Assembly (NCBI RefSeq): GCF_003816055.1
Contig: NZ_CP033906.1
Location: 62,001 to 126,000, forward strand
Origin: Bacillus sp. FJAT-42376
Lineage (GTDB): Bacteria; Bacillota; Bacilli; Bacillales; Bacillaceae
DNA length: 64,000 nucleotides
Direction of reading: 5' to 3'
The position numbers and the translations under genes were made by a program. Below the pieces are notes generated by a model. That model made no database searches, had not been told where the DNA came from, and was given only the letters and a program-made list of their open reading frames with translations. Positions within the stretch are counted from its first letter, which is position 1. Each line of letters begins with the position of its first letter. Below, piece after piece: positions 9,426 through 53,667 of this stretch.

Positions 9426-9678
9426 GCACTGACCCTCCCTTCGCTAATGCATGAAAGGACAGAGGAAACAATGGATACCTCCTTTTACACCGCCAGTGGA
9501 TGAGATTAGGGGACGGAGGTTTAGCGCTTTAGCAGAGCGGGGGTCAGTGCATTGCTCTGACCTTCTGCCCTTTAAAGTAACGAGGGAACAAGCATTCAAT
9601 CCGCAAAGTCTTGATTTATATAGGGATATAAGGAACAGGGACGGAGGTTTAGTCCTTTAGCAGAGCGGGGGTCAGTGC
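9426..9678. repeat. Two tandem 125-bp elements with GGGTCAGTGC-type termini
   Basis: Units at 9426-9550 and 9554-9678, each exactly 125 bp, separated by ATT. Ends are GCACTGACCC (GCTCTGACC in the second) and GGGGGTCAGTGC. The block near the right end reads GGGACGGAGGTTTAG then CTTTAGCAGAGCGG. Same family as the copies at 35559, 44540 and 53415. The 9042-9115 and 9679-9733 remainders hold nothing I recognise. Confidence 0.85.
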
Positions 9679-9733
9679 TCACACGAAGCAGGCGGCCAGT
9701 TCCCCCGATCCCTCACACGCCTAAAAAATAAAA

Positions 9734-9757
9734 AAACCGCTGCAAAAGCAGCGGTTT
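9734..9757 (-). terminator. Terminator after the AIM24-like gene
   Basis: Perfect ten-base-pair stem AAACCGCTGC / GCAGCGGTTT with an AAAA loop and A/T-rich flanks on both sides, so it can act in both directions. It touches the stop of the 9760-10542 gene. Confidence 0.88.
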
Positions 9758-9759
9758 CT

Positions 9760-10542
9760 TTATGTCAGCAACGGGCCTCTTGATGTGGTTGGAGAAAGCC
9801 AGACTTGCCCTGTTCCGCGGAACGTCTGCAGGTAGCCCTCTCCGCTCGATGCAGAGCCGATGATTCCTTTGGCAGACCGTTCGACTGTAAACTGGATGCC
9901 GCCGGTCCGGAGAATGGCAAAGTTGCCGTCGACCTTCAGGGTATCGTTGTTTAGATCGACTTTGACGACTGCGCCTGCCGGTACCGGGCTTTCCAGGACG
10001 ATGATGCCGGATCCGGAGAGCTTTGTCTGGAACAGTCCCTCTCCTCCCCTTGCAGCAGAGGACAAATTTTTCATGGATTCAATTCCAACTTCAACGGTTG
10101 ACTCGCAGCAGTAGAACATTCCTTTATCCACGATGATAGAGTCATTTTCAATTTCAAGCATGAGGAAGTGGCTGAAGCTCGGCTCTAAAAAGATATCGCC
10201 GGTTCCCCTGTATTTAGGTTTTATGGCTGATTCGTTTGTCAGGACGCTGCTTGCAAACTTTTTCATGATTCCTGCAGCTCCGCCAAGCGAGTTATCCATC
10301 TCAATGCTTCCCTGCATGTAGTGGAGGGCTCCCGCTTCCGTTGTGATGCTGCCATTTCTCAGTTCGATGGCAATTTGCCTAAGGCCCATGCCGAGTTTTT
10401 TAGCGTAATACATATCGGTTGGGGAGGTTAAGTATGTACTGCCGTTTAAATCATTGAATTCTACAATTTTAAACACAGCATTCTGGGTTTCAAGCTGTTC
10501 AATTACACTGTATACTTCGGGATTATTTTGAACAATCATCAT
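9760..10542 (-). CDS. AIM24 family protein
   Basis: 260-residue soluble protein of the AIM24/TIGR00266-like beta-prism family. The pattern of Gly-rich strands (GAALHYMQGSIEM, YRGTGDIFLEPS, ARGGEGLFQTKLSGSGIIVLESP, GGIQFTVERSAKG, GEGYLQTFRGTGQVWLSP) is typical. No enzyme motif is seen and its bacterial role is unknown. Two adjacent ATGs follow AGGAGGAGAA; the first is used here. It is a single-gene unit between its terminator and tdk. Confidence 0.78.
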   Translation of the reverse strand: MMIVQNNPEVYSVIEQLETQNAVFKIVEFNDLNGSTYLTSPTDMYYAKKLGMGLRQIAIELRNGSITTEAGALHYMQGSIEMDNSLGGAAGIMKKFASSVLTNESAIKPKYRGTGDIFLEPSFSHFLMLEIENDSIIVDKGMFYCCESTVEVGIESMKNLSSAARGGEGLFQTKLSGSGIIVLESPVPAGAVVKVDLNNDTLKVDGNFAILRTGGIQFTVERSAKGIIGSASSGEGYLQTFRGTGQVWLSPTTSRGPLLT

Positions 10543-10633
10543 TTCTCCTCCTTAACACCTATTCTTTTACCATCGTACCATATTGGCTCAGTAAAAAACT
10601 TCCTTTTAGCTTCGGATCTGTCATCACAGACCG

Positions 10634-10671
10634 AAAAAATCCCTCTTTGCTGATTGTAAGCAAAGAGGGAT
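10634..10671 (-). terminator. Terminator after tdk
   Basis: Twelve-base-pair stem (ATCCCTCTTTGC / GCAAAGAGGGAT) followed on the minus strand by six T residues, just downstream of the tdk stop. Confidence 0.88.
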
Positions 10672-10681
10672 GGCTGTTTGA

Positions 10682-11299
10682 TTATGGATGAGAAGCCTGG
10701 TTTTGTTCACGTGCAAATGCAGGCTTTCCCGGAACTTCGTGGTGATGGCGGCAGCGAGGCTCATAGGATTCGGATGCTCCAACGAGGATGATCGGATCCT
10801 TGTAAGCCGCTGGCTTTCCGTCAATCAGACGCTGTGTACGGCTTGCGGGCGAACCGCAAACAGAACAGACCGCCTGAAGCTTCGTAACCGACTCCGCAAT
10901 CGCCATTAAATCCGGCATGATGCCGAAAGGCTCTCCGCGGAAATCCTGATCAAGACCGGCCGTAATCACACGGTGCCCGCGGTCTGCCAGGGTCGTTACG
11001 ACTTCCATGATTCCGGCATCAAAAAACTGGATTTCATCGATGGCTACAACATCTGTATCCTCATCCACAAGGCTTAATACATCTGCTGAAGTCGGAACCG
11101 GCGAGCAGATAATGGTTGTCCCATTGTGGGAAACGACTTCTTTCTCACTGTATCGGTTATCTATGGATGGCTTAAAAACTAAAACATTTTGTTTTGCGTA
11201 CTGCGCACGGCGCACTCTTCGGATCAGTTCCTCGGATTTCCCCGAGAACATACTGCCGCAAATGACTTCAAGCCATCCGCTAAATTTCATTACATACAT
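10682..11299 (-). CDS. tdk: Thymidine kinase
   Basis: Salvage kinase that phosphorylates thymidine to dTMP with ATP. P-loop [16 protein letters not shown] near residue 12; DEIQFFD (Walker B) near residue 88. Lasso-region zinc cysteines are in [13 protein letters not shown], with a C-terminal CRHHHEVP completing the site. The frame extends upstream to 11407, but the start at 11299 ([15 protein letters not shown]) has GGGAGAGG eight bases before it and matches B. subtilis Tdk. 205 residues. Confidence 0.95.
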
Positions 11300-11458
11300 G
11301 CATACGGCCTCTCCCTTCATTCCATGCATAAGGCTGATGGACCGTGTTACAGCCTGGTCACCCCGGTTTTTCTTTTCATTTATCTTGTCCGAATCCCTGC
11401 TTTCCATGCCGAAAGTCCTTATGAAAAACGATTGAATTCGTGTTTTTTTCGTAAAAAA

Positions 11459-11484
11459 ACAGGCAAGTGTGAAGACTTGCCTGT
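11459..11484 (-). terminator. Terminator after rpmE
   Basis: Ten-base-pair stem ACAGGCAAGT / ACTTGCCTGT with A-rich and T-rich flanks, between rpmE and tdk; bidirectional in appearance. Confidence 0.88.
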
Positions 11485-11508
11485 TTTTGTTTACATCTAT
11501 TTCTAAAA

Positions 11509-11709
11509 TTACTTGATTCCGTATTTTTTATTGAAACGGTCAACACGTCCGCCAGCTTCAGCGAATTTCTGACGTCCAGTGTAGAATGGATGACATTCAG
11601 AGCAAGTCTCGATGCGAAGCTCATCTTTAACTGAACCAGTTTCAAATTCGTTTCCGCAAGAACATTTCACCATTACTTTTTTGTAATTAGGATGGATTCC
11701 AGCTTTCAT
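11509..11709 (-). CDS. rpmE: 50S ribosomal protein L31 (zinc form)
   Basis: Large-subunit protein at the subunit bridge. It keeps the zinc cysteines (KCSCGNEF ... [11 protein letters not shown]), so it is the C+ form rather than the YtiA-type paralogue made under zinc starvation. The ATG at 11709 ([10 protein letters not shown]) is preferred, since the upstream ATG directly abuts AAGGAG. 66 residues. It follows rho, as in B. subtilis. Confidence 0.97.
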
Positions 11710-11867
11710 TCTTTTCATCTCCTTCTGCCCTGAATTCTTACCGAACCCAGAGTTATCTTGTTCAGCCTAAATTTATCTGAACGGCATATGAAAAAATTAT
11801 AACAGGGCTTCTCTATGATTGCAAGGAACAAAATTGGAATCTTTCAGGAAACCCTGCCGAGTTTTTT

Positions 11868-13151
11868 CTATGATCTTCTTGAGCCTGCTGTGCTTGGCTT
11901 CATTTCAGCCGAAAGCATGTCAAAAAATTCTTCATTGCCTTTCGACTGCTTTAATTTACGAAGGAATTTCTCGACAAAATCCGGTGTATCCGTCATTGAT
12001 TTACGGATTGCCCATAATTTTTCAAGGTGTTCCTTCTGAACGAGAAGTTCTTCTTTCCTTGTTCCGGAACGGCGGATATCAATTGCAGGGAAAATCCGTT
12101 TTTCGGCAAGGGAGCGGTCAAGATGAAGCTCCATATTACCGGTTCCTTTAAATTCCTCATAAATGACATCGTCCATACGGGAACCCGTATCAACGAGAGC
12201 CGTCGCTAGAATCGTTAAGCTTCCGCCTTCTTCGATATTACGCGCTGCTCCGAAGAAACGCTTTGGACGGTGGAATGCAGCAGGATCGATTCCTCCTGAA
12301 AGTGTACGGCCGCTTGGAGGAATCACAAGGTTATAGGCACGGGCAAGACGCGTGATGCTGTCCATAAGGATAATGACGTCTTTCTTGTGCTCCACAAGCC
12401 TCATCGCACGGTCAAGCACGAGTTCAGCTACCTTGATATGATTCTCCGGAACTTCATCAAACGTGGAGCTGACAACATCGCCTGCAACTGAACGTTCAAT
12501 GTCCGTTACTTCCTCCGGACGCTCATCGATTAAGAGAACAATGAGTTCTGCTTCCGGATTATTGGTTGTGATGCTGTTCGCGATTTCCTTCAAAAGCATC
12601 GTTTTCCCTGCTTTTGGAGGGGCTACGATTAATCCGCGCTGCCCGAAGCCAACCGGCGCAATGAGGTCCATAATTCTGGTGGACAGCATATGCGGCTGTG
12701 TTTCAAGGATAATCTGACGGTCCGGGTAAAGCGGCGTAAGAGCAGGGAAATGAACGCGTTCCTTTGCCGACTCAGGATCGTCGCCATTCACCGCATCTAC
12801 ATGTAGAAGGCCGTAATAGCGTTCGTTTTCCTTTGGAGGACGGACCTTACCGGATACTTTATCACCGTTTCTTAAATCAAAACGTCTGATCTGGGACGCA
12901 GAAATATAAATATCCTCCGAGCTTGGAGAATAGTTAATCGGTCTAAGGAAACCAAAGCCCTCAGACTGAATGATTTCAAGAACCCCTTCCATGAATAAAA
13001 GGTCTTCCTGTTCTGCATCTGCTTTTAAAATAGCAAAAATCAGTTCTTTTTTCGTCAACTTGCTGTAGTAAGAGATTTTGAAATGACGAGCATGCTCGTA
13101 CAATTCTTTCAGCTTCATGTTTTCCAATGAAGAGATGGAAACCTTACTCAT
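11868..13151 (-). CDS. rho: Transcription termination factor Rho
   Basis: Hexameric RNA helicase that ends transcription. It has an N-terminal Rho-N helix domain (residues 1-45), an OSB-fold RNA-binding domain (EGVLEIIQSEGFGFLRP, about 53-110), and a RecA-type ATPase with P-loop IVAPPKAGKTMLLKE near residue 170, Walker B VIILMDSITRLARAYN and the SGGIDPAAF loop. 427 residues, the B. subtilis length. The 264-base gap upstream (13152-13415) contains only the glpX terminator and no obvious leader structure. Confidence 0.97.
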   Translation of the reverse strand: MSKVSISSLENMKLKELYEHARHFKISYYSKLTKKELIFAILKADAEQEDLLFMEGVLEIIQSEGFGFLRPINYSPSSEDIYISASQIRRFDLRNGDKVSGKVRPPKENERYYGLLHVDAVNGDDPESAKERVHFPALTPLYPDRQIILETQPHMLSTRIMDLIAPVGFGQRGLIVAPPKAGKTMLLKEIANSITTNNPEAELIVLLIDERPEEVTDIERSVAGDVVSSTFDEVPENHIKVAELVLDRAMRLVEHKKDVIILMDSITRLARAYNLVIPPSGRTLSGGIDPAAFHRPKRFFGAARNIEEGGSLTILATALVDTGSRMDDVIYEEFKGTGNMELHLDRSLAEKRIFPAIDIRRSGTRKEELLVQKEHLEKLWAIRKSMTDTPDFVEKFLRKLKQSKGNEEFFDMLSAEMKPSTAGSRRS

Positions 13152-13381
13152 GTAAACACCACACTTTTACCATATAAAATAGACATACTGGTTTTCTTTC
13201 CGCCCTATATGTACTTTTGACATTGAAAAATGGATTTCAGGATAGAGAAGGAAAAGAAGGAAAAATTTGAAGTAGTTGAAGCAGTGTATTTTTGATTTGC
13301 AGCACTCTTTAGTTTTACCTTATTTCAGGTGATTAATCAATACGTTTTCGGAGACGTAAAACATTTGAAATAAATGAGGGA

Positions 13382-13403
13382 ACCGGGGCCATAAAACCCC
13401 GGT
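13382..13403 (-). terminator. Hairpin after glpX
   Basis: Seven-base-pair stem ACCGGGG / CCCCGGT with an eight-base loop, between the glpX stop and rho. The T-tract is weak on the minus strand and stronger on the plus strand. Confidence 0.5.
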
Positions 13404-13415
13404 CCGCTTTTCTTT

Positions 13416-14378
13416 TTATTTGATGACTAAGTTTGGTTTCTTTTTGAGGCTGTGCTGTCCGTCAATAAAGCGGACGGTGCCTGATTTCGCTCTCATGACA
13501 AGGGATTGCGTGGTGCCGCTTGACGCTTTGAACTGCACACCGCGCAGCAATTCCCCATCCGTCACACCGGTGGCTGCGAAGATCGCATCATCACCTTTTA
13601 CCAAATCATCCATCAAAAGGACTTTGTTTACATCAAGTCCCATTTTCACACAGCGCTCCAGTTCCTGATCGCTTTGAGGAATAAGCCTTCCCTGGATCTC
13701 CCCGCCCAGGCATTTTAAAGCGACGGCAGAAAGAACTCCTTCAGGCGCTCCGCCGGAACCGAAAAGAATATCAACACCCGTATGGTCAAAGGCCGTATTG
13801 ATCGCGCCTGCTACATCGCCGTCGTTGATCAGCTTGATGCGGACACCTGCTTCGCGGAGCTCATTGATAATCCCCTGATGGCGTTCCCTGTTCAGGATGG
13901 TTGCAACTATGTCTTCAATGTCTTTGTTTTTCGCTTTTGCGACAGCCCGGAGGTTATCCATAATGGGAGCGTTGATGTCAATGCAGCCGACTGCATCCGG
14001 CCCCACCGCTATTTTATCCATATACATATCGGGTGCGTTCAGCAGATTGCCGTGATCCGCAACAGCTATAACAGCAAGCGCATTCCAGCCTCCCTGTGCC
14101 AGGATATTCGTTCCTTCAAGTGGATCAACCGCTACATCCACTCTCGGTCCGTAACCATTCCCAAGCTTTTCTCCAATGTAGAGCATCGGGGCTTCATCCA
14201 TTTCCCCTTCCCCAATGACGACTGTCCCTTTCATCGGAATCGTGTCGAATACATCTCTCATTGCAGAAGTAGCGGCATCATCCGCTTCATCCTTCTTGCC
14301 GCGTCCCATCCATCTGGCGGATGCGAGTGCTGCAGCTTCTGTTACGCGTACTAGTTCCATCGACAAACTTCTTTCCAT
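13416..14378 (-). CDS. glpX: Fructose-1,6-bisphosphatase, class II
   Basis: Gluconeogenic phosphatase of the GlpX family. Metal-site motifs are visible: [11 protein letters not shown] near residue 57 and VDPLEGTN near residue 84; later [13 protein letters not shown] and [11 protein letters not shown]. 320 residues. It has an AGGGGAGG ribosome binding site. It lies between rho and murA2, corresponding to B. subtilis ywjI/glpX. A nine-base-pair hairpin (14421-14442) without a clear T-run sits between it and murA2. Confidence 0.95.
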
Positions 14379-14452
14379 CTTTGGTTCCTCCCCTTCGCTG
14401 TAACGAAATTATGTATGAGACCTGCTTCCATAAGGAAGCAGGGTGGTAACGG

Positions 14453-15742
14453 TTATGAATTTTCGACTTGCTCTATTTCCTCAGCCGTTAATTTTTCGCG
14501 CCAGATTGTGGCACCCATATTCGTAAGCTTTTGCTCAAGTTCGCTGTAGCCCCTGTCAATATGCTCGAGGCCTGTAACCTCTGTTATCCCTTCAGCCATT
14601 AAGCCGGCTGTCACCAGAGCGGCTCCGGCTCTCAGATCACTTGCTTTTACTTTTGCGCCCTGCAGCTTATTTGGCCCGGATACAATAGCGGAACGACCTT
14701 CCACTTTAATGGATGCTCCCATACGGCGAAGCTCGTCAATGTGCTTGAACCGCGCGGAATAGATCGTATCCGTTACAACGCTTGTCCCATTGGCTTTTGT
14801 AAGGAATGATGTGAAAGGCTGCTGAAGATCCGTAGGGAATCCGGGATAGACAAGGGTCTTCACATCAACCGGCTTCAGCTCTTTTTGCCCGCCGACAATC
14901 CAGATTTGATCATTGCTCGTCTCAACATGGACGCCGGTCTCCCTTAATTTTGCAATGAGAGACTCCATATGGAGGGGAATCACGTTATCAATCAGCACTT
15001 CTTTTCCGGCAGCAGCACCGATAATCATATACGTACCGGCCTCAATCCGGTCCGGAATGATGGTATGGCGGCACCCATGGAGTTTTTCAACTCCGTCGAT
15101 GCGGATGACATCCGTTCCTGCTCCTTTTATTTTGGCACCCATACTCGTGAGAAGGGTTGCGACATCTACAATTTCAGGTTCCTTCGCCGCATTTTCAATA
15201 ATGGTGCGCCCTTTTGCCAGGACCGCTGCAAGCATAATATTAATGGTGGCCCCGACACTGACTACATCCAGATAAATACGTGCGCCCTTTAGTTCTTCTG
15301 CGCGGAGATAAATGGCACCCTGCTCATTTGTCACCTGTGCACCGAGCGCTTCAAACCCTTTAATGTGCTGGTCAATCGGCCGCGGTCCGAGGTGGCATCC
15401 TCCCGGAAGTCCGATTACTGCCTTTTTAAAGCGGCCAAGCATGGCACCCATCAGGTAATAAGAAGCCCTTAATTTTTTCACCTTTCCGTTTGGAAGAGGC
15501 ATTGAAATCATGTTTTCCGGCTGGACGTGCATTTCACCGTTATGAAAGTCGACTTTTCCGCCTACTTCCTCAAGCAAATCCTTTAAGATGTGGACATCGG
15601 ATATATTCGGCAAGCCTTCAATAATGACGGGGGATTCAGCTAAAATAGTCGCTGGAATCAGCGCTACTGCACTGTTTTTTGCTCCGCTGATTGTAACGGA
15701 ACCTTTCAGCAGATCACCGCCTGCAATCTTTAATTTTTCCAT
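14453..15742 (-). CDS. murAB: UDP-N-acetylglucosamine 1-carboxyvinyltransferase (second MurA paralogue)
   Basis: Transfers enolpyruvate from PEP to UDP-GlcNAc, the first committed step of peptidoglycan synthesis. It has N-terminal [13 protein letters not shown], and [19 protein letters not shown] carries the PEP- and fosfomycin-reactive cysteine. The start at 15742 ([10 protein letters not shown]) has GAAGGAG; the frame open to 16030 is not protein-like. About 429 residues. Its position next to tal and fbaA identifies it as the MurAB/MurZ paralogue rather than MurAA. Confidence 0.94.
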
Positions 15743-16021
15743 GATGGTCTCCTTCCTAAGAAGCTGACATGTTAGGACACTCTTTTCAACAAATTCTCCA
15801 TAAATCCGACAGAACATACTCTGTATATGAAAAATAAACGAAGCGTCAAAAATTGAGTCTCTTCCCATTGTAAAATAAATTCCATTGATGCTCAAATCGT
15901 CCGGGAAAAACCTTCTTTTTGCAAAAGGACAGATTAATAGAATGCCTTTTGTACAGTGTATCATCAAGTCCAAAACGATGCTTAACAGGCACTCTGAGTC
16001 CAATACGCAAATAAACCGCAT

Positions 16022-16048
16022 AAATGGCAAGCCGGTAGCTTGCCATTT
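16022..16048 (-). terminator. Hairpin after tal
   Basis: Perfect eleven-base-pair stem AAATGGCAAGC / GCTTGCCATTT, 26 bases past the tal stop. The T-run is short. The rest of the gap to murA2 (15743-16021) shows nothing recognisable beyond possible promoters. Confidence 0.55.
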
Positions 16049-16074
16049 ATTCCTGCCTATTTACTTATTTGCAT

Positions 16075-16716
16075 TTATACGCGGCTGTTCCAGTCCGCCA
16101 GAAACTTTTCAATCCCCTGATCTGTCAGCGGGTGGTTGAAAAGCTGATGGATCACTTTAAGCGGAATGGTCGCAATGTGAGCTCCATTCAACGCGGCTTC
16201 CGTAACGTGCATCGGATGGCGGATGGATGCCGCAATAATTTCTGCATCCAGACCATGAAGATCAAATATTTCAGAAATCGTTGCAATTAAGTCCATGCCG
16301 TTCTGTCCGATATCATCCAGTCTTCCAAGAAAGGGAGAAACATAGGATGCTCCCGCACGGGCTGCAAGAAGCGCCTGGTTTGCACTGAAAATAAGCGTGA
16401 CATTCGTTTTGATTCCAAGCTCTGAAAATTCCTTGACTGCCTTCAGCCCATCCGGTGTCATCGGAACCTTGACCGTTATATTTGGAGCAATTTTTGCTAG
16501 TTCTTTTCCTTCTTCAATCATTTCTTCGGCTTTTAAAGAAATGACTTCTGCACTGACCGAACCTTTAACTATGTCTGTAATTTCTCTTAGTCTATCATGA
16601 AAGGAAATATTCTCTTTGGCTACTAAACTCGGGTTTGTCGTCACGCCTGCAAGGATGCCCATCTCCTGGGCTTCTTTGATTTCTTCAAGGTTTGCTGTAT
16701 CAATGAAAAATTTCAT
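16075..16716 (-). CDS. tal: Transaldolase (short, YwjH type)
   Basis: Moves a dihydroxyacetone unit in the non-oxidative pentose phosphate pathway; this short subfamily also includes fructose-6-phosphate aldolases. It starts [16 protein letters not shown] at 16716 after GGGAGCGG. The Schiff-base lysine is in NITVKVPMT near residue 83, and [10 protein letters not shown] follows. 213 residues. In B. subtilis the order fbaA-tal-murAB is the same. Confidence 0.93.
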
Positions 16717-16782
16717 TCTGTTCCGCTCCCTTATCAAAAATCTGAAAACTAAATCTTGTTATCGCTTTCTTTTTACATCTTT

Positions 16783-16810
16783 GAAAACCGTCTCCTGAAA
16801 GACGGTTTTC
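16783..16810. other. Hairpin between tal and fbaA
   Basis: Perfect ten-base-pair stem GAAAACCGTC / GACGGTTTTC with an eight-base loop. No clear T-run on the minus strand; it may be a weak terminator or a processing site for the fbaA-tal transcript. Confidence 0.45.
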
Positions 16811-16816
16811 AATTGT

Positions 16817-17840: not shown

Positions 17841-18028
17841 GTCGAATAATCCTCCTTGTATAGCCTGATTTTGCTAAACCCGAAAAGCCTATCAAATCTA
17901 GCTTGACCAGAAAATTTCCTGTATATGTAACTAAGAAATGGATGCATAGCTTTTCTCAAACAATAGCATACCAATAACAAGAAAAATCGGCAACTTTTCG
18001 AGACATGTCCAAAAATTCAAACTTTTTG

Positions 18029-18495: not shown

Positions 18496-18556
18496 GCCCT
18501 TTAAGGTGCCGGATGGCCGCAGGTCTGCGCCGCGGCAGAACTCCCTTCCTTAAAGG
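18496..18556. other. GC-rich two-tier hairpin upstream of ywjG and spo0F
   Basis: Outer stem CCTTTAAGG (18498-18506) with CCTTAAAGG (18548-18556), inner stem GCCGC (18516-18520) with GCGGC (18532-18536). It lies in the 300-base divergent gap between spo0F and ywjG. It does not match a riboswitch I can name. Confidence 0.45.
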
Positions 18557-18704
18557 CGCTGCTTTTATATGACTTATGATACTAATTCTTGTAAGAAGGT
18601 CAATCTCCTGCCTCTTATTGGATATTGTTTAACATTTTGTATTTTAACCGCAGATTCCGTATAATGCCTGTGAAAAGGATCCGTATAAAAGGAGTTTTTT
18701 ACCC

Positions 18705-19250
18705 ATGCTAAAAATATTTTCCACACAGCTCTCCGGGCAGTTTCAGCGCATTCAAACCCAGGAGGAGTTTTCCATAGAAGATGGAGCAAGGCTGCTTGCC
18801 CAAGCCTGTGCCGGGGATGGAATCGTTTATATTCACGGATTCCGCGAGCTCTCGGGAATCGTTATGGAGGCAATGGACAGTGCCGAGCCTTTTCCGAAGG
18901 CAAAACCGCTGTTCAATGAAAGCGGGGAAATGGCTGCCGTCCTCCCTGCGGACCGCGTGCTTTTCTTCACCCGGCTTTCTTCCGATCAGGAAGCCATCAG
19001 GCTCGCCCGCAGACTTCAGGATGAAGGGGTGCAAACCGTCGGAGTATCTGCGCTCGATGGAGAACCGGGACTTGAGGGGATTGTGGATGTTCACATTGAC
19101 TCCAAGCTTAAAAAACCGATGATTCCTGCCGAAGACGGCAGCCGGTATGGATTCCCCGCTTTGATGACCGGTTTATTTGTGTACTATGCCCTCCGTTTTA
19201 CTATTGAGGAAATCCTCTCTGAATATGAAGAAGAGGATGAAGAGATTTGA
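18705..19250 (+). CDS. ywjG: DUF2529 / YwjG family protein
   Basis: 181-residue protein of the DUF2529 family, with a SIS-like arrangement: GIVYIHGFRELSG, DRVLFFTRLSSDQEAIRLAR and YGFPALMTGLFVYYALRFTIEE. Function is not established. The ATG follows AAAGGAG. It is transcribed away from spo0F and converges on pyrG, sharing the terminator at 19283. Confidence 0.85.
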   Translation: MLKIFSTQLSGQFQRIQTQEEFSIEDGARLLAQACAGDGIVYIHGFRELSGIVMEAMDSAEPFPKAKPLFNESGEMAAVLPADRVLFFTRLSSDQEAIRLARRLQDEGVQTVGVSALDGEPGLEGIVDVHIDSKLKKPMIPAEDGSRYGFPALMTGLFVYYALRFTIEEILSEYEEEDEEI

Positions 19251-35558: not shown

Positions 35559-35811
35559 GCACTGACCCCCGCTCTGCTAAAGCACTAAAACTCCGTCCCC
35601 TTCTCTTTTAATCTTCCTTCTGACAAGGACTTTGCTGGTTATTCCTCTGTCCCTCAGTACGGTGAAGGAATGGGGGTCAGTGCAATGCACTGACCCCCGT
35701 TCTGATAAAGCACTAAAACTCCGTCACCGCTCGGTACGAACCCTTTCCGCACAGGCATTTACAAATATCTTCCTCTGTCCCCTGCTGCGGTGAAGCGCCG
35801 GGGGTCAGTGC
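35559..35811. repeat. Two tandem 125-bp elements
   Basis: Units 35559-35683 and 35687-35811, each exactly 125 bp, separated by AAT. Ends GCACTGACCCCCG and GGGGGTCAGTGC; interior blocks AAAGCACTAAAACTCCGTC and CTCTGTCCCnGnTnCGGTGAA. Opposite orientation to the copies at 9426 and 53415. The junction is a long palindrome. Fills the gap between convergent uvsE and argS. Confidence 0.88.
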
Positions 35812-43763: not shown

Positions 43764-44546
43764 ATGAACCTGCATGCATCATTCCTTAAAAGAGTCGGTC
43801 TGGAAAACAGCGGACAGGTCCAATTTGAGGACCTGGAACGCATCTTAAAGGCCTTTTCACTTACCATTCCATTTGAGAATTTCGGCATCCTGGACAACAA
43901 AAAAATTCCGCTTACCGCAGAATCCCTATCCTTTAAAATACTGGAACAGCGCCGCGGAGGGGTTTGCTATGAGCTGAATCCTCTCCTTTATTATTTTCTC
44001 ACCGAGAATCATTTAGACGTACAGCTTATACAGGGAACGGTATACAACCATGCTGAGCAGAAATGGAGCTTATCCGGAACACACGCTGCCATTCTGCTGA
44101 GTACGGACAGCTCCTCTTATTTGCTGGACAGCGGTTTTGGAACGAACGTGGCCCAAAAGCCTATTCCCATGAATGGAGAAATGACCGAATCCGCCACAGG
44201 CAAATTCCGGATTCGCGAAAAATCCACAAGCGAAGGCAGCCACCTGCTAGAAATGAGGCTGGACTCTGAGCAGCAGGATAGCTGGAAAATCGGGTATGCT
44301 TTTCACGCGGACAGGCCATTGAACTTAACTGACCTTTACGACATTCAGGCAAAAATCCACGACAATCCTGATTCTCCTTTTAACAAGAAGCCTCTTGCTG
44401 CCATGAGGACAGAAACCGGTGTCAAAACATTATCCGAAGCATCCTTTTCGGTTACGGAAGATGGGCGTACAGAAAAGCATCCCCTTTCCGCTGGAGAGTT
44501 TCAGAAAATGGCTGAGAAGGAGTTTGGTTTACAGGGTTTGCTCTGA
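43764..44546 (+). CDS. nat: Arylamine N-acetyltransferase
   Basis: Acetyl-CoA-dependent transfer to arylamines, via a cysteine ping-pong mechanism. Catalytic triad visible: Cys in RRGGVCYELNPL near residue 73, His in GTHAAILL near 111, Asp in LLDSGFGTN near 125. 260 residues. It has a GGGGGAA ribosome binding site. The final codons and TGA stop (44540-44546) are part of the first 125-bp element downstream, so that insertion appears to have set the C-terminus. Not present at this place in B. subtilis. Confidence 0.9.
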   Translation: MNLHASFLKRVGLENSGQVQFEDLERILKAFSLTIPFENFGILDNKKIPLTAESLSFKILEQRRGGVCYELNPLLYYFLTENHLDVQLIQGTVYNHAEQKWSLSGTHAAILLSTDSSSYLLDSGFGTNVAQKPIPMNGEMTESATGKFRIREKSTSEGSHLLEMRLDSEQQDSWKIGYAFHADRPLNLTDLYDIQAKIHDNPDSPFNKKPLAAMRTETGVKTLSEASFSVTEDGRTEKHPLSAGEFQKMAEKEFGLQGLL

Positions 44547-44922
44547 CCCCCGCTCTGCTAAAGCACTAAATCTCCGTCCCCCCTGTTTCTCATTCGTGTT
44601 CTGCCAAGGGTTTAGCGATTTTCTGCTCCGGACCCCGGTGCGGTGAATCGGTGAGGGTCAGTGCATAGCACTGACCCCCGCTCTGCTAAAGCACTAAACC
44701 TCCGTCCCCCCCCTGCTTCTCATTCGTGTTCTGACAAGGGTTTAACGATTTTCTGCTCTGGACCCCGCTGCGGTGAATCGGTCAGGGTCAGTGCATAGCA
44801 CTGACCCCCGCTCTGCTAAAGCACTAAATCTCCGTCCCTCCTGCTTCTCATTCGTGTTCTGCCAAGGGTTTGACGGTTCTCTGCTCTGGACCCCGCTGCG
44901 GTGAATCGGTGAGGGTCAGTGC
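44540..44922. repeat. Three tandem 125-127-bp elements
   Basis: Units 44540-44664 (125 bp), 44668-44794 (127 bp) and 44798-44922 (125 bp), separated by ATA each time. Ends GCACTGACCCCCG (GCTCTGACC in the first) and GAGGGTCAGTGC. The units are nearly identical (CTGCTAAAGCACTAAA..CTCCGTCC, CTCATTCGTGTTCTG, GACCCCGCTGCGGTGAATCG), so the array is recent. Between convergent nat and ywgA. Confidence 0.92.
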
Positions 44923-45492: not shown

Positions 45493-45528
45493 TTCCCCTT
45501 CATCTCCTAACTCCGTAATTCTCTCTAT

Positions 45529-46833: not shown

Positions 46834-46992
46834 TCTTTTCCCTCTTCCGTTTTACTTGTATCCATTATAGCGGTTTTCAAGTGCTGATTGAATGCTGTTT
46901 TCCTATATTTTGAAATTAATGCAAATTAAGAGGGCATACTTCTTTATTGCCCTGTTAGGAGGATCGGTAATCGGAATTCGGAGCAAGAAAAA

Positions 46993-47024
46993 AAATCACC
47001 AGCGCATGAAGACGCCCGGCGATT
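46993..47024 (-). terminator. Terminator after the DUF1450 gene
   Basis: Imperfect stem AAATCaCC-aGCGC / GCGcCCGGcGATTT followed by nine T on the minus strand, overlapping the stop codon of the DUF1450 gene. Confidence 0.65.
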
Positions 47025-47248
47025 TATTTGTTCAGTTTTTTCTCTATTTTTTCAACCAGTTCGTCTTCACTCAGCGCAGAGACTGGACGGTTATTTACAA
47101 ATGCAAACGATTTTTTTCTGCCGGGTCCGCAATAGGATTGACAGCCAATATCTATCGGTGCATCCGGATCCACTTTTTTCAAGCGGGGGACAAGCGTTTT
47201 AATGTTTGTCGCCTGGCAATCGTCGCAAATACGAAATTCATTCGCCAT
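47024..47248 (-). CDS. DUF1450 small cysteine-containing protein
   Basis: 74-residue protein with three clustered cysteine positions (ICDDCQATN near residue 8, [20 protein letters not shown] near residue 35), typical of DUF1450/YuzB-like proteins, which may bind metal or act in thiol chemistry. Function unknown. Single-gene unit with its own terminator. Confidence 0.8.
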
Positions 47249-47424
47249 GAATCCCCATTTCCTTTCTTCGTTGAAAATTTCTATTGTAAGAGTTTTGTCA
47301 CTCTTTGCCTTTTCAAAACACTAAACGCTATTTTACCTTGATTTTTCTTCACATGCAAGTTCAGAAAGCATTCAATCATGTTCCGAAACTTTCAAAATTT
47401 TTCTATTATCCTTTTAAAAATGAT

Positions 47425-47454
47425 GTATAAAAGGCTTCGATTCCGGCCATTCTG
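47425..47454 (+). promoter_or_regulatory. Sigma-F promoter of rsfA
   Basis: GTATA (47425-47429) matches the sigma-F -35 exactly. After 15 bases GGCCATTCTG (47445-47454) matches nine of ten -10 positions. rsfA is a forespore gene in B. subtilis. Confidence 0.75.
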
Positions 47455-47492
47455 TTATCAGGAAAACATTACAGTTAATGGGAGTTGAGATC

Positions 47493-48260
47493 ATGAAACA
47501 GAGACAGGATGCCTGGTCGGAAGAAAATGACCTGTTGCTTGCAGAAACCGTTCTGCGTCATGTACGCGAAGGAAGTACGCAGCTGAATGCATTTGAAGAA
47601 GTAGGAGATAAATTGAATCGCACTTCCGCTGCCTGCGGATTCCGCTGGAACGCAGTCGTCCGGCATCAATATGAGAAAGCGCTCCAGCTTGCGAAAAAAC
47701 AGCGGAAACAAAAAATGAGGGCACTCGGAAAAGGCCAGCCCGCCAAGAAAAAACTGCTATACGCACCGCCTGAAACGGCTTTGGCTCAGCCTGTCTATGC
47801 AGAGGAGACGGCAGAAGAACAAGCCTATGAACCTGCTATTTCAGCCTATGTTCCGCCTAAACAGGAGGACGTCCTGGATGACGAGGAGCTGAATGGGGTT
47901 TCCTATACTAGTCTCAAGCAGCCTGCGCCTGTATCAGCTGTATCAGCAGGGGCCATTACAATGGATCAGGTCATTGCGTTTCTTGAAACATACGAAAGCC
48001 GGGCGAACCACAATACCGCTCTGAAGCAGGAAAATATCCGGCTGAAAAGAGAACTCGATGAACTCGCCAGCCGCAATGAAGAGCTTGAAATGAAAATTGC
48101 TAAAATGGAAGAGGATTCAGACACGATTCAGGAAGACTACGAAACACTGATGAAAATTATGAATCGCGCCAGAAAGCTTACCTTGTTTGAAGAAGAGGAC
48201 CGTTCCGCGCCAAAATTCAAGATGGACCGCAACGGAAACCTTGAAAAAGTAGCGGAATAG
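47493..48260 (+). CDS. rsfA: Prespore-specific transcription factor RsfA
   Basis: Modulates sigma-F-dependent genes in the forespore. N-terminal Myb/SANT-like domain ([51 protein letters not shown], residues 7-57), an acidic linker, and a C-terminal coiled coil (about 170-220, [34 protein letters not shown]). The start is ATG at 47493 after GGGAG. 255 residues, B. subtilis length. It converges with lipL. Confidence 0.92.
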
Positions 48261-48291
48261 TCCATTTCCCCCTCCCCCTATTTATATAGAA

Positions 48292-48321
48292 GACGCTCAC
48301 ACAGCTGTGGGCGTCCTTTTT
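48292..48321 (+). terminator. Terminator after rsfA
   Basis: Ten-base-pair stem GACGCTCACA / TGTGGGCGTC (one G-U), four-base loop, run of six T. Confidence 0.88.
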
Positions 48322-49169
48322 TATACAATCCCTATTTTTTTATTCCGCTCAATCATCCTCGTCAGATTTTTCTCGAAAATCAGCTGCTCGTCCATAGATA
48401 AAGAGGAAGAAAAAATCCGTCCGCTCAGGTTTTTCAGAGCGGTAAGGAGCTTAAGCATGACATCCTGTATGGTCATGTTTTCATCCAGCAGTTCATTCAA
48501 TGACGCCATGACTTCCGGTACGATGACTGGATATTCAAATTTCGTCGGAGTTCCTCTGAGGCTCTTCTCATAAAAATTCCGGATTACGCCAGCCCTACCG
48601 GATCCGCTGCCGGTCACGCACAAATAAATCTGCACAGCGACCCCGTTTCGAAGACGCCTTTGCGATATTCCGGCAAATTTTTTCCCGCCAATGCTCAAAT
48701 CATAGCTTCCCGGACAATAGGACCCCTTAATTTCCCTTGCTTCAATGAAAGCAGCATGCTCCGGAAACATGACCTTAATCAGCTCCCACATCGCTTCATA
48801 CCCTCTGTTTATATCAATTCCTTTATCTGTTTCAGGAAAAATGAGAGAAATGTTTAAAACGCCCTCATCCAATACAACCGCAAGCCCGCCTGAATTTCTG
48901 ACAACTGTCCGATAGCCGAGAGACGTTAAATATTCGATTCCCTCTTCTATAAAAGGCAGCCTTGTATCTTGAATCCCGAGCACAATGGTATCGTGATGGA
49001 CCCACGTCCTGGCCGTCGCAGGGGACGCCAGGGAGCCGGCTGACGTACAAAGTGTATCATCAAAAGCAAACGACTGCTTTGCGTCAAATTGAGGTCCAAG
49101 ACTTGACTGATCCAATATTCTCCATTCCGGCTGCATTAATAGGCTCAAAGATTTTTCTGTCATGGTCAT
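48321..49169 (-). CDS. lipL: Octanoyl-[GcvH]:protein N-octanoyltransferase
   Basis: Moves octanoyl from the GcvH lipoyl domain to E2 subunits in the Bacillus lipoyl relay. Biotin/lipoate ligase fold: [41 protein letters not shown] and the acyl-cysteine in [24 protein letters not shown] (Cys152). 282 residues, matching B. subtilis LipL (YwfL). Two near ATGs follow AAAGGAA; the first is used. Confidence 0.93.
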
Positions 49170-49283
49170 GTATTCCTTTCTTTTCCGGTCGTTCTATCGC
49201 TTTTTATTATAGCATGAACGTTTGGAACCGGAAAAGGAGGGGTTCATTTCAGGCGGTTTTAGCAGGGGGCAGTCTTTTAAGCA

Positions 49284-49411
49284 GGGGTCTGTCCCCTGAA
49301 ATTTTACCGTACTAAAGCTCTGGTACCTTCTCTGTAAACCCTTGGCTTATAAGGGATCCTTCTTTAATGCCTCTGTCCCCTGATACGGTGAAGCAATGCG
49401 GGACAGGCCCC
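49284..49411. repeat. Single ~128-bp element with GGGGTCTGTCCC-type termini
   Basis: Ends GGGGTCTGTCCC and GGGACAGGCCCC (one mismatch in the inverted pair). Interior TTTTACCGTACTAAAGCTC near the left and CTCTGTCCCCTGATACGGTG near the right match the layout of the 125-bp elements elsewhere with different ends. Between lipL and pta, the only copy not at converging genes. Confidence 0.8.
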
Positions 49412-49469
49412 TATTTAAAAAGCACCGAAGCACCGCCTTTCAAAGATCACCACTAAAACACCACCCAAA

Positions 49470-49502
49470 AAAGCCGGAACGAAAAGGATTCGTTCCGGCT
49501 TT
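49470..49502 (-). terminator. Terminator after pta
   Basis: Fourteen-base-pair stem AAAGCCGGAACGAA / TTCGTTCCGGCTTT with a T-run on the minus strand, 11 bases past the pta stop. Confidence 0.93.
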
Positions 49503-49512
49503 CTGCCAATCA

Positions 49513-50487
49513 TTATTGTACGGTTTGTCCTGCTGTAATAAGAGAAAGCTTGTAAACATCCTCTGCACTGCAGCCGCGGGATAGATCGTTCACGGGCATG
49601 TTCAGACCTTGAAGGATCGGTCCGACTGCTTCGAAGTTCCCTAGACGCTGAGCGATTTTGTAGCCGATGTTTCCGGCTTCAAGGCTAGGGAATACGAATA
49701 CGTTCGCATCACCTTTGATGACGGAATCCGGAGCCTTTTTCTCTGCTACAGACGGAACGAATGCCGCATCAAATTGGAATTCCCCGTCCAGTACGAGGTT
49801 TGGAGCCAATTCTTTTGCGATCGTTACCGCCTCTGACACTTTTTCTGTTTCAGGGGATTTAGCGGATCCTTTTGTTGAGAAGCTTAGCATCGCAACGCGT
49901 GGATCAATATCGAACATGTTTGCTGTATTTGCGCTTTCAACCGCGATTTCAGCCAGGTCCTGAGCATCCGGTGAAATGTTAATGGCACAGTCGGCAAATA
50001 CATATTTTTCATCTCCGCGAACCATGATGAATACGCCGGATGTTTTTTTCACGCCTTGCTTTGTTTTAATGATTTGAAGGGCAGGACGAACGGTATCGGC
50101 TGTAGAGTGTGCCGCTCCGCTTACTAAGCCGTGGGCTTGTCCCATATATACAAGCATCGTTCCGAAATAGTTTTCGTCTTTTAAGATTTCGCGCGCCTGC
50201 TCTTCCGTTGCTTTCCCTTTACGGCGTTCAACAAATGCCTGAACCATGTCTTCGAAGCCTTCGAAGCTGTTCGGGTCTTTAATTTCCACACCGTCAAGCT
50301 TTACATTCAGTTCAGCCGCTTTCTGCTCAACCGCCTGCTTGCTGCCGATAACGATTGGCTGTAAAACGCCTTCTTCAGCAAGACGGGATGCCGCTGTTAA
50401 AATCCGCTCATCGGTGCCTTCCGGAAGAACGATTTTAATATCCTTACCTGTCACTTTTTCTTTTAACGTTGCAAACAAATCTGACAA
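49513..50487 (-). CDS. pta: Phosphate acetyltransferase
   Basis: Converts acetyl-CoA and phosphate to acetyl phosphate for overflow acetate production. 324 residues of the short Pta type: IVLPEGTDERIL near residue 18, GMLVYMGQAHGLVSGAAHSTADTVRPALQ near 124, and VFPSLEAGNIGYKIAQRLG near 267. The start codon is TTG at 50487 (MSDLFATLKEKV), eight bases after AAGGAGG, with no usable ATG. It lies between lipL and hemQ as in B. subtilis. Confidence 0.96.
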   Translation of the reverse strand: MSDLFATLKEKVTGKDIKIVLPEGTDERILTAASRLAEEGVLQPIVIGSKQAVEQKAAELNVKLDGVEIKDPNSFEGFEDMVQAFVERRKGKATEEQAREILKDENYFGTMLVYMGQAHGLVSGAAHSTADTVRPALQIIKTKQGVKKTSGVFIMVRGDEKYVFADCAINISPDAQDLAEIAVESANTANMFDIDPRVAMLSFSTKGSAKSPETEKVSEAVTIAKELAPNLVLDGEFQFDAAFVPSVAEKKAPDSVIKGDANVFVFPSLEAGNIGYKIAQRLGNFEAVGPILQGLNMPVNDLSRGCSAEDVYKLSLITAGQTVQ

Positions 50488-50530
50488 ATGAATGCCCTCC
50501 TTATTTAATGCCTCATATGCTTCCTGTTTT

Positions 50531-50586
50531 AGGATACTTTACTGAGCAGGAAATTCAAGTCATCGCCCGTTATGACAGCGTTATCA
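50531..50586 (-). promoter_or_regulatory. pta promoter with upstream CcpA cre site
   Basis: On the minus strand TTGAAT (50553-50558), 16 bases, TATCCT (50531-50536). Upstream TGATAACGCTGTCA (50573-50586) matches 13 of 14 bases of the cre consensus TGWAANCGNTNWCA. Its centre is about 55 bases before the expected start of transcription, the position from which CcpA activates pta in B. subtilis. Confidence 0.72.
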
Positions 50587-50744
50587 GTCAATAATTCTTT
50601 ATTTTCAAAACTAACTGACTACTCAGCGCGCCTTTTTTTCCTCCTTTATCATCCTTGTTTCCTTCAAGTTTTATTCACAAATCCGTGAGTTAAACTGTGA
50701 TATAGTTAGGTTAGAATGAATAGAGAGAATAGGAGTGAAATGAA

Positions 50745-51503
50745 ATGAATGAAATGCCGAAAAACGAAGCTGCACAAACCCTTGACGGCTGGTACGCTTT
50801 GCATGATTTCAGAACGCTTGACTGGGCAGCATGGAAGATGCTGACGGGCGACGAACGCGAAATGATTATCCATGAATTCTCCGGCCTCCTTGAAAAATGG
50901 GGCGCAGTGGAGAAAGCCGGAAAAGGCAGTCACGCTCTTTACAGCATTGTTGGACAAAAAGCAGATTTCATGATGATGCTCTTGCGGCCGACTATGGAGG
51001 AACTGAACGAGATTGAAACGGAATTTAATAAATCCCGCCTTGCTGAATTCACATTGCCGGCATTTTCCTATGTATCTGTCGTTGAGCTGAGCAACTACCT
51101 TGCAGGAGACGGAGACCCGTATGAAAATCCTCAGGTGCGCGCGCGGCTATATCCGGAGCTTCCAAAAGCGAAGCATGTCTGCTTCTATCCAATGGACAAG
51201 CGCAGACAGGGCAACGACAACTGGTATATGCTTCCGATGGATGAGCGTAAAAGCCTGATGAGAAGCCATGGAATGATTGGCAGACAATACGCAGGCAAGG
51301 TTAAGCAAATTATTTCCGGCTCTGTTGGTTTTGATGATTACGAATGGGGCGTTACCCTTTTTGCCGATGACGTTCTTCAGTTTAAAAAGCTTGTTTATGA
51401 AATGCGGTTTGACGAGGTAAGTGCCCGATACGGCGAATTTGGATCCTTCTATGTCGGAAATATTCTTTCTCCTGAAAAGGTCCAGTCGTTTTTCCATATT
51501 TAA
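50745..51503 (+). CDS. hemQ: Coproheme decarboxylase HemQ
   Basis: Last step of the coproporphyrin-dependent heme pathway of Firmicutes: decarboxylates coproheme III to heme b. Chlorite-dismutase fold. The catalytic tyrosine is in [10 protein letters not shown] (Tyr148) and the heme-ligand histidine in [10 protein letters not shown] (His175). 252 residues. It diverges from pta, as ywfI does in B. subtilis. Confidence 0.95.
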
Positions 51504-51507
51504 CAGT

Positions 51508-51536
51508 AAAAGCTCTTTCCATCAGGAAAGAGCTTT
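51508..51536. terminator. Bidirectional terminator after hemQ
   Basis: Stem AAAAGCTCTTTCC / GGAAAGAGCTTTT with a four-base loop; T-runs in both directions between two converging genes. Confidence 0.9.
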
Positions 51537-52157
51537 TTAGCGCGCGGTAAATTGATTGCTGCTGTCCTGATCCCAGTTCTCTCCTCTGTAGCCGGTATGC
51601 CCCTCCTCATTCACAAAACAAGGGAGAACTTCATGGACCACCCCGGACACTGCACTTTGCCTAAATGAAATTGTGAACCGCATTTTTGATGAATCCGAAG
51701 GGGCGATCACCGAGTTCTGAGGGGTCAGGCTGTTCGAAGCAAGCAGCTGCCCATTCATTCCGACTGTACCGATTCCTGACGGCTGCGCCTGATTAACTCT
51801 GATCCAATAGTTCGTCACTTTTAAAGCAGAGGCAAGATCGCAAGGTCGATCATAAACGATTTCAATCTGATTTGCCGCCGTCTGCCTGGCCATTAACAGC
51901 TTGGGAACGGCCACTCGGATATTCAAATCCGCGACTCGGTAGCTTACCCCAATTTTAAGAAGCTGGCTTCCGGTAAGCCGGTAGCTGCCATTGCCGGTCC
52001 TCCTTGCCCTAAAGCTCGTTCCATCATCTCCGTTTATCGTTAGTACAGGGGCAGCAGAAGCAAAGCCTGCCAGCTGAATTTCGGTGAGAGTAATAATGTT
52101 GGCTCTTACTTGCCTGTAAGCTAACGAATGTCCAATGCTATTGTAGCTGCTGTACAA
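51537..52157 (-). CDS. Unrecognised beta-rich protein
   Basis: I do not recognise this gene. Read from a TTG at 52157 seven bases after GAGGAGG (a better start than the ATG at 52310) it gives 206 residues. The protein is rich in Ser, Asn, Thr and beta-type segments (ITLTEIQLAGFASAAPVLTI; YRLTGSQLLKIGVSYRVADL; LKVTNYWIRVNQ; MRFTISFRQSAVSGVVHEVL). It has no signal peptide or membrane segment and ends NQFTAR. The segment VTNYWIRVNQAQPSGIG resembles Ig-like or surface-layer modules. It converges on hemQ. Confidence 0.6.
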   Translation of the reverse strand: MYSSYNSIGHSLAYRQVRANIITLTEIQLAGFASAAPVLTINGDDGTSFRARRTGNGSYRLTGSQLLKIGVSYRVADLNIRVAVPKLLMARQTAANQIEIVYDRPCDLASALKVTNYWIRVNQAQPSGIGTVGMNGQLLASNSLTPQNSVIAPSDSSKMRFTISFRQSAVSGVVHEVLPCFVNEEGHTGYRGENWDQDSSNQFTAR

Positions 52158-52728
52158 GTGATTGCCTCCTCTTTTTCTATTTCCTCTTTCTACCCTATGT
52201 ACCAATGAGCGTTTTTTGCCTGTTATAAAAAAGAATAATTCCATTTCTTTTCTCATACTATCTGTGTTGAGTATGGTATTCAGTCTTTCTCTTCTCAGGG
52301 GTGAATACATGACAAGAAGCTTTCAAGGCAGATGAGGGCGGCAGGTGCTGGAGTCAGTGCAATGGGAATGCTTTTTGAGGTGAACAGAGGTAAAGACTCC
52401 TGTCTTGATGTTAAAGGCATATCCTCTATAAAAGGCAGGCATTCAGCGGCCTGGAGGATTTGAAGTGACTTAAGCAGGATCTTTTTACCAGGAATTTCCT
52501 TCCACTGACGTTAAACCTCGCCAAAAACGTCGCTGCAGGGAATCACTGCAGGCCGGGGGAGTATTCGCTCAAGCCTGCCGGAAATTGCTCCGGAAACCTG
52601 GTACAGCCAGGAGAATTCCGGGCGCTGGATATTACAATGCTTCTATACCCCTAGCCAGCAGGATGGCGCTTCTGTTTTTTCAGCGCGCTGATGTTTTGAA
52701 ATGACAACTCATGAAATGGGGGATTTTC
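52158..52728. other. Gene-free stretch before gerQ
   Basis: 570 bases with no supported gene on either strand. It is GC-rich with short dyads (for example around 52540 and 52590) but nothing I can name. I could not find a sigma-E promoter matching its consensus for gerQ. Confidence 0.5.
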
Positions 52729-53316
52729 ATGCTATTTAATAAAAAGCAGGGAAACAACGGGCAGCAGCAGGCACCATATCCTTATCCCGGCTACGGGTAC
52801 GGATACGATCCGGGATATGATGCTTCTTATGACCAGCGGGCTTATCAGCCTTTTGCGATGCAAGGACAGCAAGGTCAGGGACAAATGCAGCAAGGCCAGG
52901 GTCAGCAGGGAATGGGACAACAGGGAATGGGACAACAGGGAATGGGCGGCATGCAGGGGCAGCAGGGCCAGGGGCAAATGCAGGGATTTCAGATTCCTCC
53001 CATGCAGTCACAGGCTTCTCCCTCTCAGAGTATTCCCGGAATGCTGCCGCTGGAAGAATCGTATATTGAGAACATTTTAAGACTGAACAGAGGCAAAACC
53101 GCGACCGTTTATATGACATTTGAAAACAATAAAGAGTGGAATGCAATGATTTTCAAAGGGACGATCGAGGCAGCGGGAAGGGACCATATTATCCTGAGCG
53201 ATTCCCAAACAGGAAGACGGTATCTGCTTCTCATGGTGTACCTGGATTATATTACCTTCGATGAGGAAATCAATTATGAGTATCCGTTTGCAATGGCAAC
53301 ATATTCACCCCGGTAA
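52729..53316 (+). CDS. gerQ: Spore coat protein GerQ
   Basis: Inner-coat protein cross-linked by transglutaminase and needed to retain the lytic enzyme CwlJ. N-terminal half is Gln/Gly/Met/Tyr-rich and partly repetitive (GQQGMGQQGMGGMQG; YPYPGYGYGYDPGYD), while the conserved C-terminal domain is PLEESYIENILRLNRGKTATVYMTFE ... GRRYLLLMVYLDYITFDEEI. The start is ATG at 52729 after GGGGG. 195 residues. Upstream of ywdK, as in B. subtilis (ywdL). Confidence 0.93.
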   Translation: MLFNKKQGNNGQQQAPYPYPGYGYGYDPGYDASYDQRAYQPFAMQGQQGQGQMQQGQGQQGMGQQGMGQQGMGGMQGQQGQGQMQGFQIPPMQSQASPSQSIPGMLPLEESYIENILRLNRGKTATVYMTFENNKEWNAMIFKGTIEAAGRDHIILSDSQTGRRYLLLMVYLDYITFDEEINYEYPFAMATYSPR

Positions 53317-53414
53317 CCGGATACCGGAGAAACTTTCACTTTTCATAGAGAATTGTGCGTCAAACTGACGGATTAACCGTGTTTTAACGGGGGGGCAATG
53401 CTCTGTATTTCTCT

Positions 53415-53667
53415 GCACTGACCCTCATCCCTTCACCGCATCAAGGGGCAGAGGAAGACTGCCTGCATCCCTTGCGCTGAAAGGATTGGCCGTTTGCAGG
53501 GACGGAGCTTTCGTCCTTTAGCGAGGCGAGGGTCAGTGCTATGCACTGACCCTCATCCCTTCACCGCATCAAGGGACAGAGGAAGACTGCCTGCATCCCT
53601 TGCGCTGAAAGGATTAGCGGTTTGCAGGGACGGAGCTTTCGCCCTTTAGCGAAGCGGGGGTCAGTGC
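53415..53667. repeat. Two tandem 125-bp elements
   Basis: Units 53415-53539 and 53543-53667, each exactly 125 bp, separated by TAT. Ends GCACTGACCCTCATCCC and GGGTCAGTGC. They differ from each other at only a few bases. Same orientation as the copies at 9426. After the array, 53667-53720 is a low-complexity run rich in CAAACC and CAACC. Between convergent gerQ and ywdK. Confidence 0.9.

Follow-up and report, generated by a model that had tools for sequence, protein, structure and literature searches.

Repeat units in the window

The stretch analysed here (the window) comprises 64,000 nucleotides of Bacillus sp. FJAT-42376, namely positions 62001-126000 of its 4,253,248-base contig; judging from its lineage, the source is probably a Metabacillus relative. 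It contains nine copies of a repeat, F1, at four loci (a to d); eight of the copies are 125 bp long and one is 127 bp. We describe this repeat together with a REP-associated tyrosine transposase (RAYT; REP, repetitive extragenic palindrome) gene that lies outside the window between further F1 units. The source genome is referred to as G000 and its relatives as G001-G005. The F1 units of the window are:

9426-9550, + strand: F1 unit 1 of doublet a, 125 bp
9554-9678, + strand: F1 unit 2 of doublet a, 125 bp; spacer ATT at 9551-9553
35559-35683, - strand: F1 unit of doublet b, 125 bp
35687-35811, - strand: F1 unit of doublet b, 125 bp; spacer at 35684-35686
44540-44664, - strand: F1 unit of triplet c, 125 bp; the upstream + strand open reading frame (ORF) terminates in its first 7 bases
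44668-44794, - strand: F1 unit of triplet c, 127 bp
44798-44922, - strand: F1 unit of triplet c, 125 bp
53415-53539, + strand: F1 unit 1 of doublet d, 125 bp
53543-53667, + strand: F1 unit 2 of doublet d, 125 bp; spacer TAT

The number, lengths and same-facing tandem arrangement of these copies agree with a preliminary description of the window, as do the five A/T triplets that separate them (ATT, AAT, ATA, ATA and TAT). The arrays at 35559 and 44540 are oriented opposite to those at 9426 and 53415. The end motif GCWCTGACC occurs 19 times in the window (0.77 expected), and the strict pattern GCWCTGACC-N107-GGTCAGTGC was found eight times, as compared to none in 200 triplet shuffles combined.

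According to the ORF list, the flanking genes are convergent at all four loci, as had been claimed. Pfam matches of the flanking pairs are MerR/AIM24, UvdE/arginyl-tRNA synthetase and GerQ/DUF423; the remaining locus lies between an N-acetyltransferase (PF00797) and a 168-aa ORF with a below-cut-off match only. We note that the N-acetyltransferase-like ORF (43764-44546, + strand) stops within the tip of the first unit of triplet c (44540-44546).

Distribution and anatomy of F1

In the stretches taken from G000, 59 F1 units form 28 arrays, mostly doublets, and on the G000 contig the pattern CTGACC-N(95-125)-GGTCAG occurs 58 times versus 7 for the reversed control. Across five genomes (G000 and, with partial lists based on 14 candidate places scored per genome, G001, G002, G003 and G005), we kept 152 of 155 candidate F1 units, the other three being excluded for want of the inner motif. 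Of the 83 arrays that the kept units form, 56 are doublets, 22 are singles (among them a fused 210-bp form), 3 are triplets, and one each has four and five units. Exactly 125 bp were measured for 134 of the 152 units, and 14 others are 124 or 126 bp long. F1 is, like a REPIN (REP doublet forming a hairpin), an extragenic inverted pair of end motifs at constant spacing, with the exception of one array that overlaps an ORF end by 7 bases.

F1 DNA matches were found in 5 of 60 genomes (G000 and four of the same genus) and in none of the other 55, and F1 junctions in 5 of 80 genomes of the family, all of this genus. A strict doublet-pattern scan at RAYT loci of other genera returned 2 positive sources out of 103, L064 and the window itself; eight loci were omitted from it beforehand and it misses F2 arrays (the sister family described below; e.g. 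L065), so absence elsewhere is weak evidence. F1 is unevenly spread along the G000 contig: every listed match lies outside the region from about 1.75 to 3.41 Mb. This contig begins with a long ORF that does not seem to resemble DnaA.

Read in one orientation, the consensus unit consists of a left tip GCACTGACCCCC, a second conserved block, a free middle (about positions 43-83), GGGGACGGAGGTTTAG and a right tip GGGGGTCAGTGC. The junction between units is a long palindrome, GGTCAGTGCA-N-TGCACTGACC, as had been noticed in the window. In element orientation, 48 of the 67 three-base spacers in the five genomes read A-N-T and 41 of 67 are all A/T, so the rule of three A/T bases between copies stands in the window and breaks down beyond it; 2 of 69 spacers exceed three bases. 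Immediately left of the array stands T in 77 of 83 cases, and immediately right of it A in 77 of 83; the flanks therefore prolong the inverted repeat. Given these flanks and the A-N-T spacers, the F1 unit is better viewed as T-125-A, with one free base separating units.

In folds predicted for 66 non-redundant units (top strand, RNA parameters), nine outer-stem pairs recur in 61-64 units and three in 47-52, and only this outer stem recurs, with no conserved inner structure. Folding energy is low on the two strands (mean z -2.9 and -3.1; 30 of the 66 units, mononucleotide shuffles), which, with the near-fixed length, would suit a structured RNA gene or a riboswitch-like array. We hold this to be extremely improbable: at gathering score, Rfam models other than 6S and an L31 leader had no match in the window, and none matched its arrays, the middle has neither conserved inner structure nor strong covariation, and the energy may come from the paired tips alone.

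A RAYT gene between repeat units

The preliminary description had allowed for a REP/RAYT-like repeat moved by a transposase encoded elsewhere, and a RAYT gene with such repeat units on both sides was indeed found in G000 and its relatives. The G000 gene (C1:4251356-4251928, near the contig end), of the 'domesticated' transposase kind, is bracketed by F1 units, one side being the fused 210-bp form (L040:1044-1253), in which two units are merged without the intervening tips. It scores 86 bits against NF047646 (cut-off 80) and 55 bits against PF01797 (cut-off 23), and its sole match in a PDB search is 4er8 (TnpArep of E. coli, E=2.9e-6). The protein contains the stretches HIH and RYIHLNP, which we take to be the HUH motif and the catalytic Tyr of RAYT, respectively. 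Assignment to an IS200/IS605 insertion sequence was rejected (NF033573 gives 22 bits versus a cut-off of 55, and the RAYT locus is syntenic in G000, G001 and G002).

Repeat units lie on both sides of RAYT in G000, G001, G002, G003 and G005, G004 has F1-profile matches on both sides of its RAYT, and the units are antisense to RAYT in all six genomes. We consider it very probable that the 125-bp unit is non-autonomous and RAYT-dependent, a repeat of REPIN-like type, with each RAYT recognising the tips of its own family.

Other transposase-like genes are present in G000. A second RAYT-like gene (L041:1750-2318), 42% identical to the first, has no F1-profile match around it, and a long tandem array of short repeats ccttcccggacattgttcccggacatcac lies upstream of it. 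Two Y1 genes (G000:C1:235969-236331 and 3609141-3609503; 139-aa frames) have equal PF01797 scores and are perhaps two copies of an IS200-type element.

A sister family and two RAYT clades

The same genomes hold a sister family, F2, with tips GTGCCTGTCC / GGACAGGCAC and an inner plan similar to that of F1; its units are mostly 126-127 bp long and separated by a one-base spacer (the F2 profile was built at the commonest length among nine seeds, i.e. from six sequences). The window includes the following F2 units:

9116-9241, + strand: F2 unit, 126 bp, tips GTGCCTGTCC / GGACAGGCAC
9243-9368, + strand: second F2 unit, same direction as the first, 1-base spacer
49285-49410, - strand: single F2 unit with diverged tips

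The F2 doublet at 9116-9368 and the F1 doublet at 9426 are 57 bases apart, and the G001 orthologue of locus a (G001:C1:3765661-3766168) is an array mixing F2 and F1 units.

RAYTs fall into two clades that follow the repeat families. The F1-flanked clade includes G000, G002 and G005 (84-98% identical), the F2-flanked clade G001 and G003 (84% identical over a 118-residue piece of the G001 gene), and identity across the two clades is 61-67%; no F1-type RAYT was seen in G001 or G003. The G001 gene is frameshifted before the RYIHLNP stretch. At the syntenic RAYT locus shared by G000, G001 and G002, the G002 and G001 neighbours are 93% (left) and 88% (right) identical, and the RAYT gene of G000 shares 81% identity with its G002 counterpart and 69% with the one in G001. 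Because G001 is closer to G002 than G000 is in the flanks, the simplest reading of these comparisons would be a cassette exchange at the RAYT locus.

Allowing up to one mismatch, we counted F1 and F2 junctions at 24:25 in G000, 20:22 in G002 and 21:29 in G005 (F1-type RAYT), as compared to 6:40 in G001 and 3:31 in G003 (F2-type RAYT), where the 3 of G003 is a lower bound since spacers like TCA, TGA and TTT escape the pattern. G004 has no junction of either family (F1 0, F2 0), and reversed controls gave 0. In three long stretches, arrays of the family matching the resident RAYT are single in 1 of 26 cases and those of the other family in 6 of 18 (Fisher p=0.013; one mixed array of 45 excluded). 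F1 arrays are single in 9 of 13 cases in G001 (9 single and 4 double) versus 13 of 70 elsewhere (p=0.0005); both tests count orthologues separately. Of 8 orthologous pairs of G001 and G002, 5 combine a single array in G001 with a double one in G002 and none the reverse; 1 is single and 2 are double in both. Maintenance of doublets by RAYT is hinted at by one species, and, as seen below for G003, weakened by another; the data suggest it and leave it unproven.

Age and turnover of the arrays

For each of the 15 arrays located in 314 kb of G002, the corresponding gap of G001, identified by matches of both flanks, also contains an array. The family is the same in 12 of these 15 pairs and differs at the two beside RAYT and at G002 4078694. 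Thirteen of the 15 have a G000 counterpart (the two beside RAYT across the contig join), the F2 arrays at G002 3811656 and 3900935 being without one. An F2 unit at G000 155706 has no counterpart in G001 or G002, where the gap between the matches measures 64 bp and 58 bp, respectively.

Mean identity of units (125-bp units only) is 0.82 within arrays (65 pairs) versus 0.64 between arrays, and between-array identity never exceeds 0.90 (2091 pairs), so no recent copy pair is seen. Middles of different arrays are 0.36 identical versus 0.25 when shuffled, i.e. near saturation. At seven orthologous loci of G000 and G002, identity is 0.93-0.95 for the tips and 0.47 for the middles; one of these loci, which includes a 124-bp unit, is not fully in register. 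At loci c and d each of the two species has its own shared middle, and at locus b only G002 does; over the seven loci, homogenisation in place is visible in both species at two and in G002 only at two, and one locus is uninformative (all alike). Because tips are conserved, middles have diverged and doublet units are often alike, the arrays appear to be old and often rebuilt in place, with tips and length nearly constant.

Replication slippage with no transposase link would also make units more alike within arrays than between them, and short tip-containing tandem repeats adjoin some arrays. Single units with both tips exist, however, the sites are scattered, and each family flanks its own RAYT clade, which makes slippage as the sole origin very improbable. 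The short repeats (such as TTTGCACTGACC or GTTTGCACT) reach the array at G000:C1 about 18500-18790 (L294) and are also found left of locus b in G001 and G002; they look as if tips had been copied repeatedly at the array boundary.

The inverted tips, the near-fixed length and the 3-base spacers in the window would fit a miniature inverted-repeat transposable element moved by a classical DDE transposase, and the preliminary description had proposed a 3-bp target duplication. Comparison of the flanks does not support the duplication: the triplets on the two sides agree directly for 1 array out of 83, where shuffled pairing gives 0.3, and among the 61 arrays with spacers, the spacer repeats the left triplet in 2 and the right one in 3. 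Since, in addition, the T/A flanks prolong the palindrome and the gene found between the repeats is of the Y1 type (no whole-genome search was made for others between F1 tips), we regard a DDE-type element as highly improbable.

Several observations weigh against a RAYT-dependent repeat. No new insertion and no base-resolved empty site was seen, and we infer mobility only; empty sites were sought at L227, at L195, at G000 155706 versus G001 and G002, and at locus b in G003 and G004, where none could be read because the intergenic DNA is too diverged or holds an array of the other family. Homogenisation in place is absent at two of the seven loci, including locus a (9426 of the window). F2 doublets persist in G001 without an intact RAYT, its gene being frameshifted, if only recently, and G003, in which no F1-type RAYT was seen, has 9 of 13 F1 arrays double. 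Covariation outside the outer stem is weak, top covarying pairs included, and the GT[AG]G foot of classical REPs is absent from the F1 consensus tips.

Arrays and convergent genes

Another explanation is that the arrays serve the host (e.g. as a hairpin between convergent genes that acts as an insulator or as an mRNA 3' end for both sides) and that RAYT accounts only for their origin. In its favour, 28 of 43 arrays lie between convergent genes (15 of 18 for F1 and 13 of 25 for F2), as compared to 107 of 608 intergenic gaps of at least 40 bp; in this count orthologues are separate, genes come from a crude gene caller, and two of 45 arrays at edges as well as uncalled RAYT genes are excluded. 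The age of the array positions, and the contrast between tips and middles at orthologous loci, point the same way. On the other side, the stem is followed by A in 77 of the 83 arrays, which leaves no U-tract of an intrinsic terminator, the convergent bias could also stem from the purging of insertions in promoters, and the match of tip family and RAYT clade is left unexplained. We think a host function with RAYT as mere origin possible, though rather unlikely; it is compatible with RAYT dependence and does not exclude it.

Comparison with known systems

REPINs of P. fluorescens SBW25 are, like F1, extragenic inverted pairs of end motifs at a preferred distance (spacing peaks of 71 or 110 bp), and RAYTs there have clusters of their own type alongside, with some tandem clusters, as with F1 (PMC3116915). 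SBW25 REPINs are mostly singlets (PMC3116915), whereas 61 of 83 F1 arrays have at least two units, mostly doublets; F1 also differs in its 3-base (often A-N-T) spacer, palindromic junction, 125-bp unit and long conserved arms. In the REPtron a RAYT is bracketed by its own repeats, with several family types, as here; it is reported not to be mobile as a unit, and some RAYT classes are reported to have no GTAG-type foot (PMC6006769). Unlike in that REPtron, the bracketing elements of F1 and F2 are mostly direct doublets of 125-127-bp units, and two tip families swap at one syntenic locus. TnpAREP of E. coli is a Y1/HUH enzyme of the same family, with reported cleavage and strand transfer at hairpins, and a single-stranded hairpin substrate would be expected here; E. 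coli REPs are short with a GTAG foot, unlike the F1 tips (PMC8266576; PDB 4er8).

A classical GTAG-tagged REP was rejected as an identity for F1, whose consensus tips have no GTAG or GTGG foot; GGAG is located inside the right arm. The element bcr1 of the Bacillus cereus group (named in PMC3733652) is also a short repeat of a Bacillus relative and, to our knowledge, has no RAYT link. The initial statement that no described element has these properties holds insofar as we found no description of this Bacillaceae family in the open-licence literature, and fails for tandem REPINs and RAYT-flanking REP clusters, which have already been described (PMC3116915, PMC8049555, PMC6006769). F1 is of the same kind as the REPIN/REPtron systems, in a Bacillaceae version, and what is new is that doublets are the usual form, that units are 125 bp long and meet in a palindromic one-base junction, and that there are two exchangeable families.

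Proposed mechanism and implications

In the mechanism we propose, the two inverted tips of about 12 bp would pair on one DNA strand and close a loop of roughly 100 nt, and units in direct tandem, whose extended palindromic tips are separated by a single free base (A-N-T), would give the doublet a central hairpin. A RAYT whose gene is placed between units, as in a REPtron, would recognise the tips of its own family, and this Y1/HUH enzyme would nick and join at single-stranded tips. Together with replication or recombination, RAYT may rebuild or duplicate units in place; dispersal to new sites would be rare, and selection or RAYT action may hold tips and length constant. Local amplification of tandem REPINs has been ascribed to host machinery (PMC8049555), so that RAYT may or may not be what makes the doublets here.

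A more far-reaching scenario, which we offer tentatively and judge unlikely in its entirety, is that the doublet with its central palindromic junction would be the working form, the cognate RAYT remaking the second unit in place, arrays collapsing to singles on loss or swap of that RAYT, and selection keeping doublets at convergent gene ends for the host. The genus would then show a switch of RAYT specificity by REPtron cassette exchange, with the orphaned family decaying.

The benefit of RAYTs to their hosts and the long persistence of REPINs are presented as open questions in the literature (PMC8049555). The genus has two RAYT clades and two matching repeat families in the same genomes and at conserved sites, and G001, with its frameshifted F2-type RAYT and most of its F1 arrays found single, is a natural test case. 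The link among RAYT, tip specificity and repeat maintenance can be tested in this genus by comparison and by gene removal.

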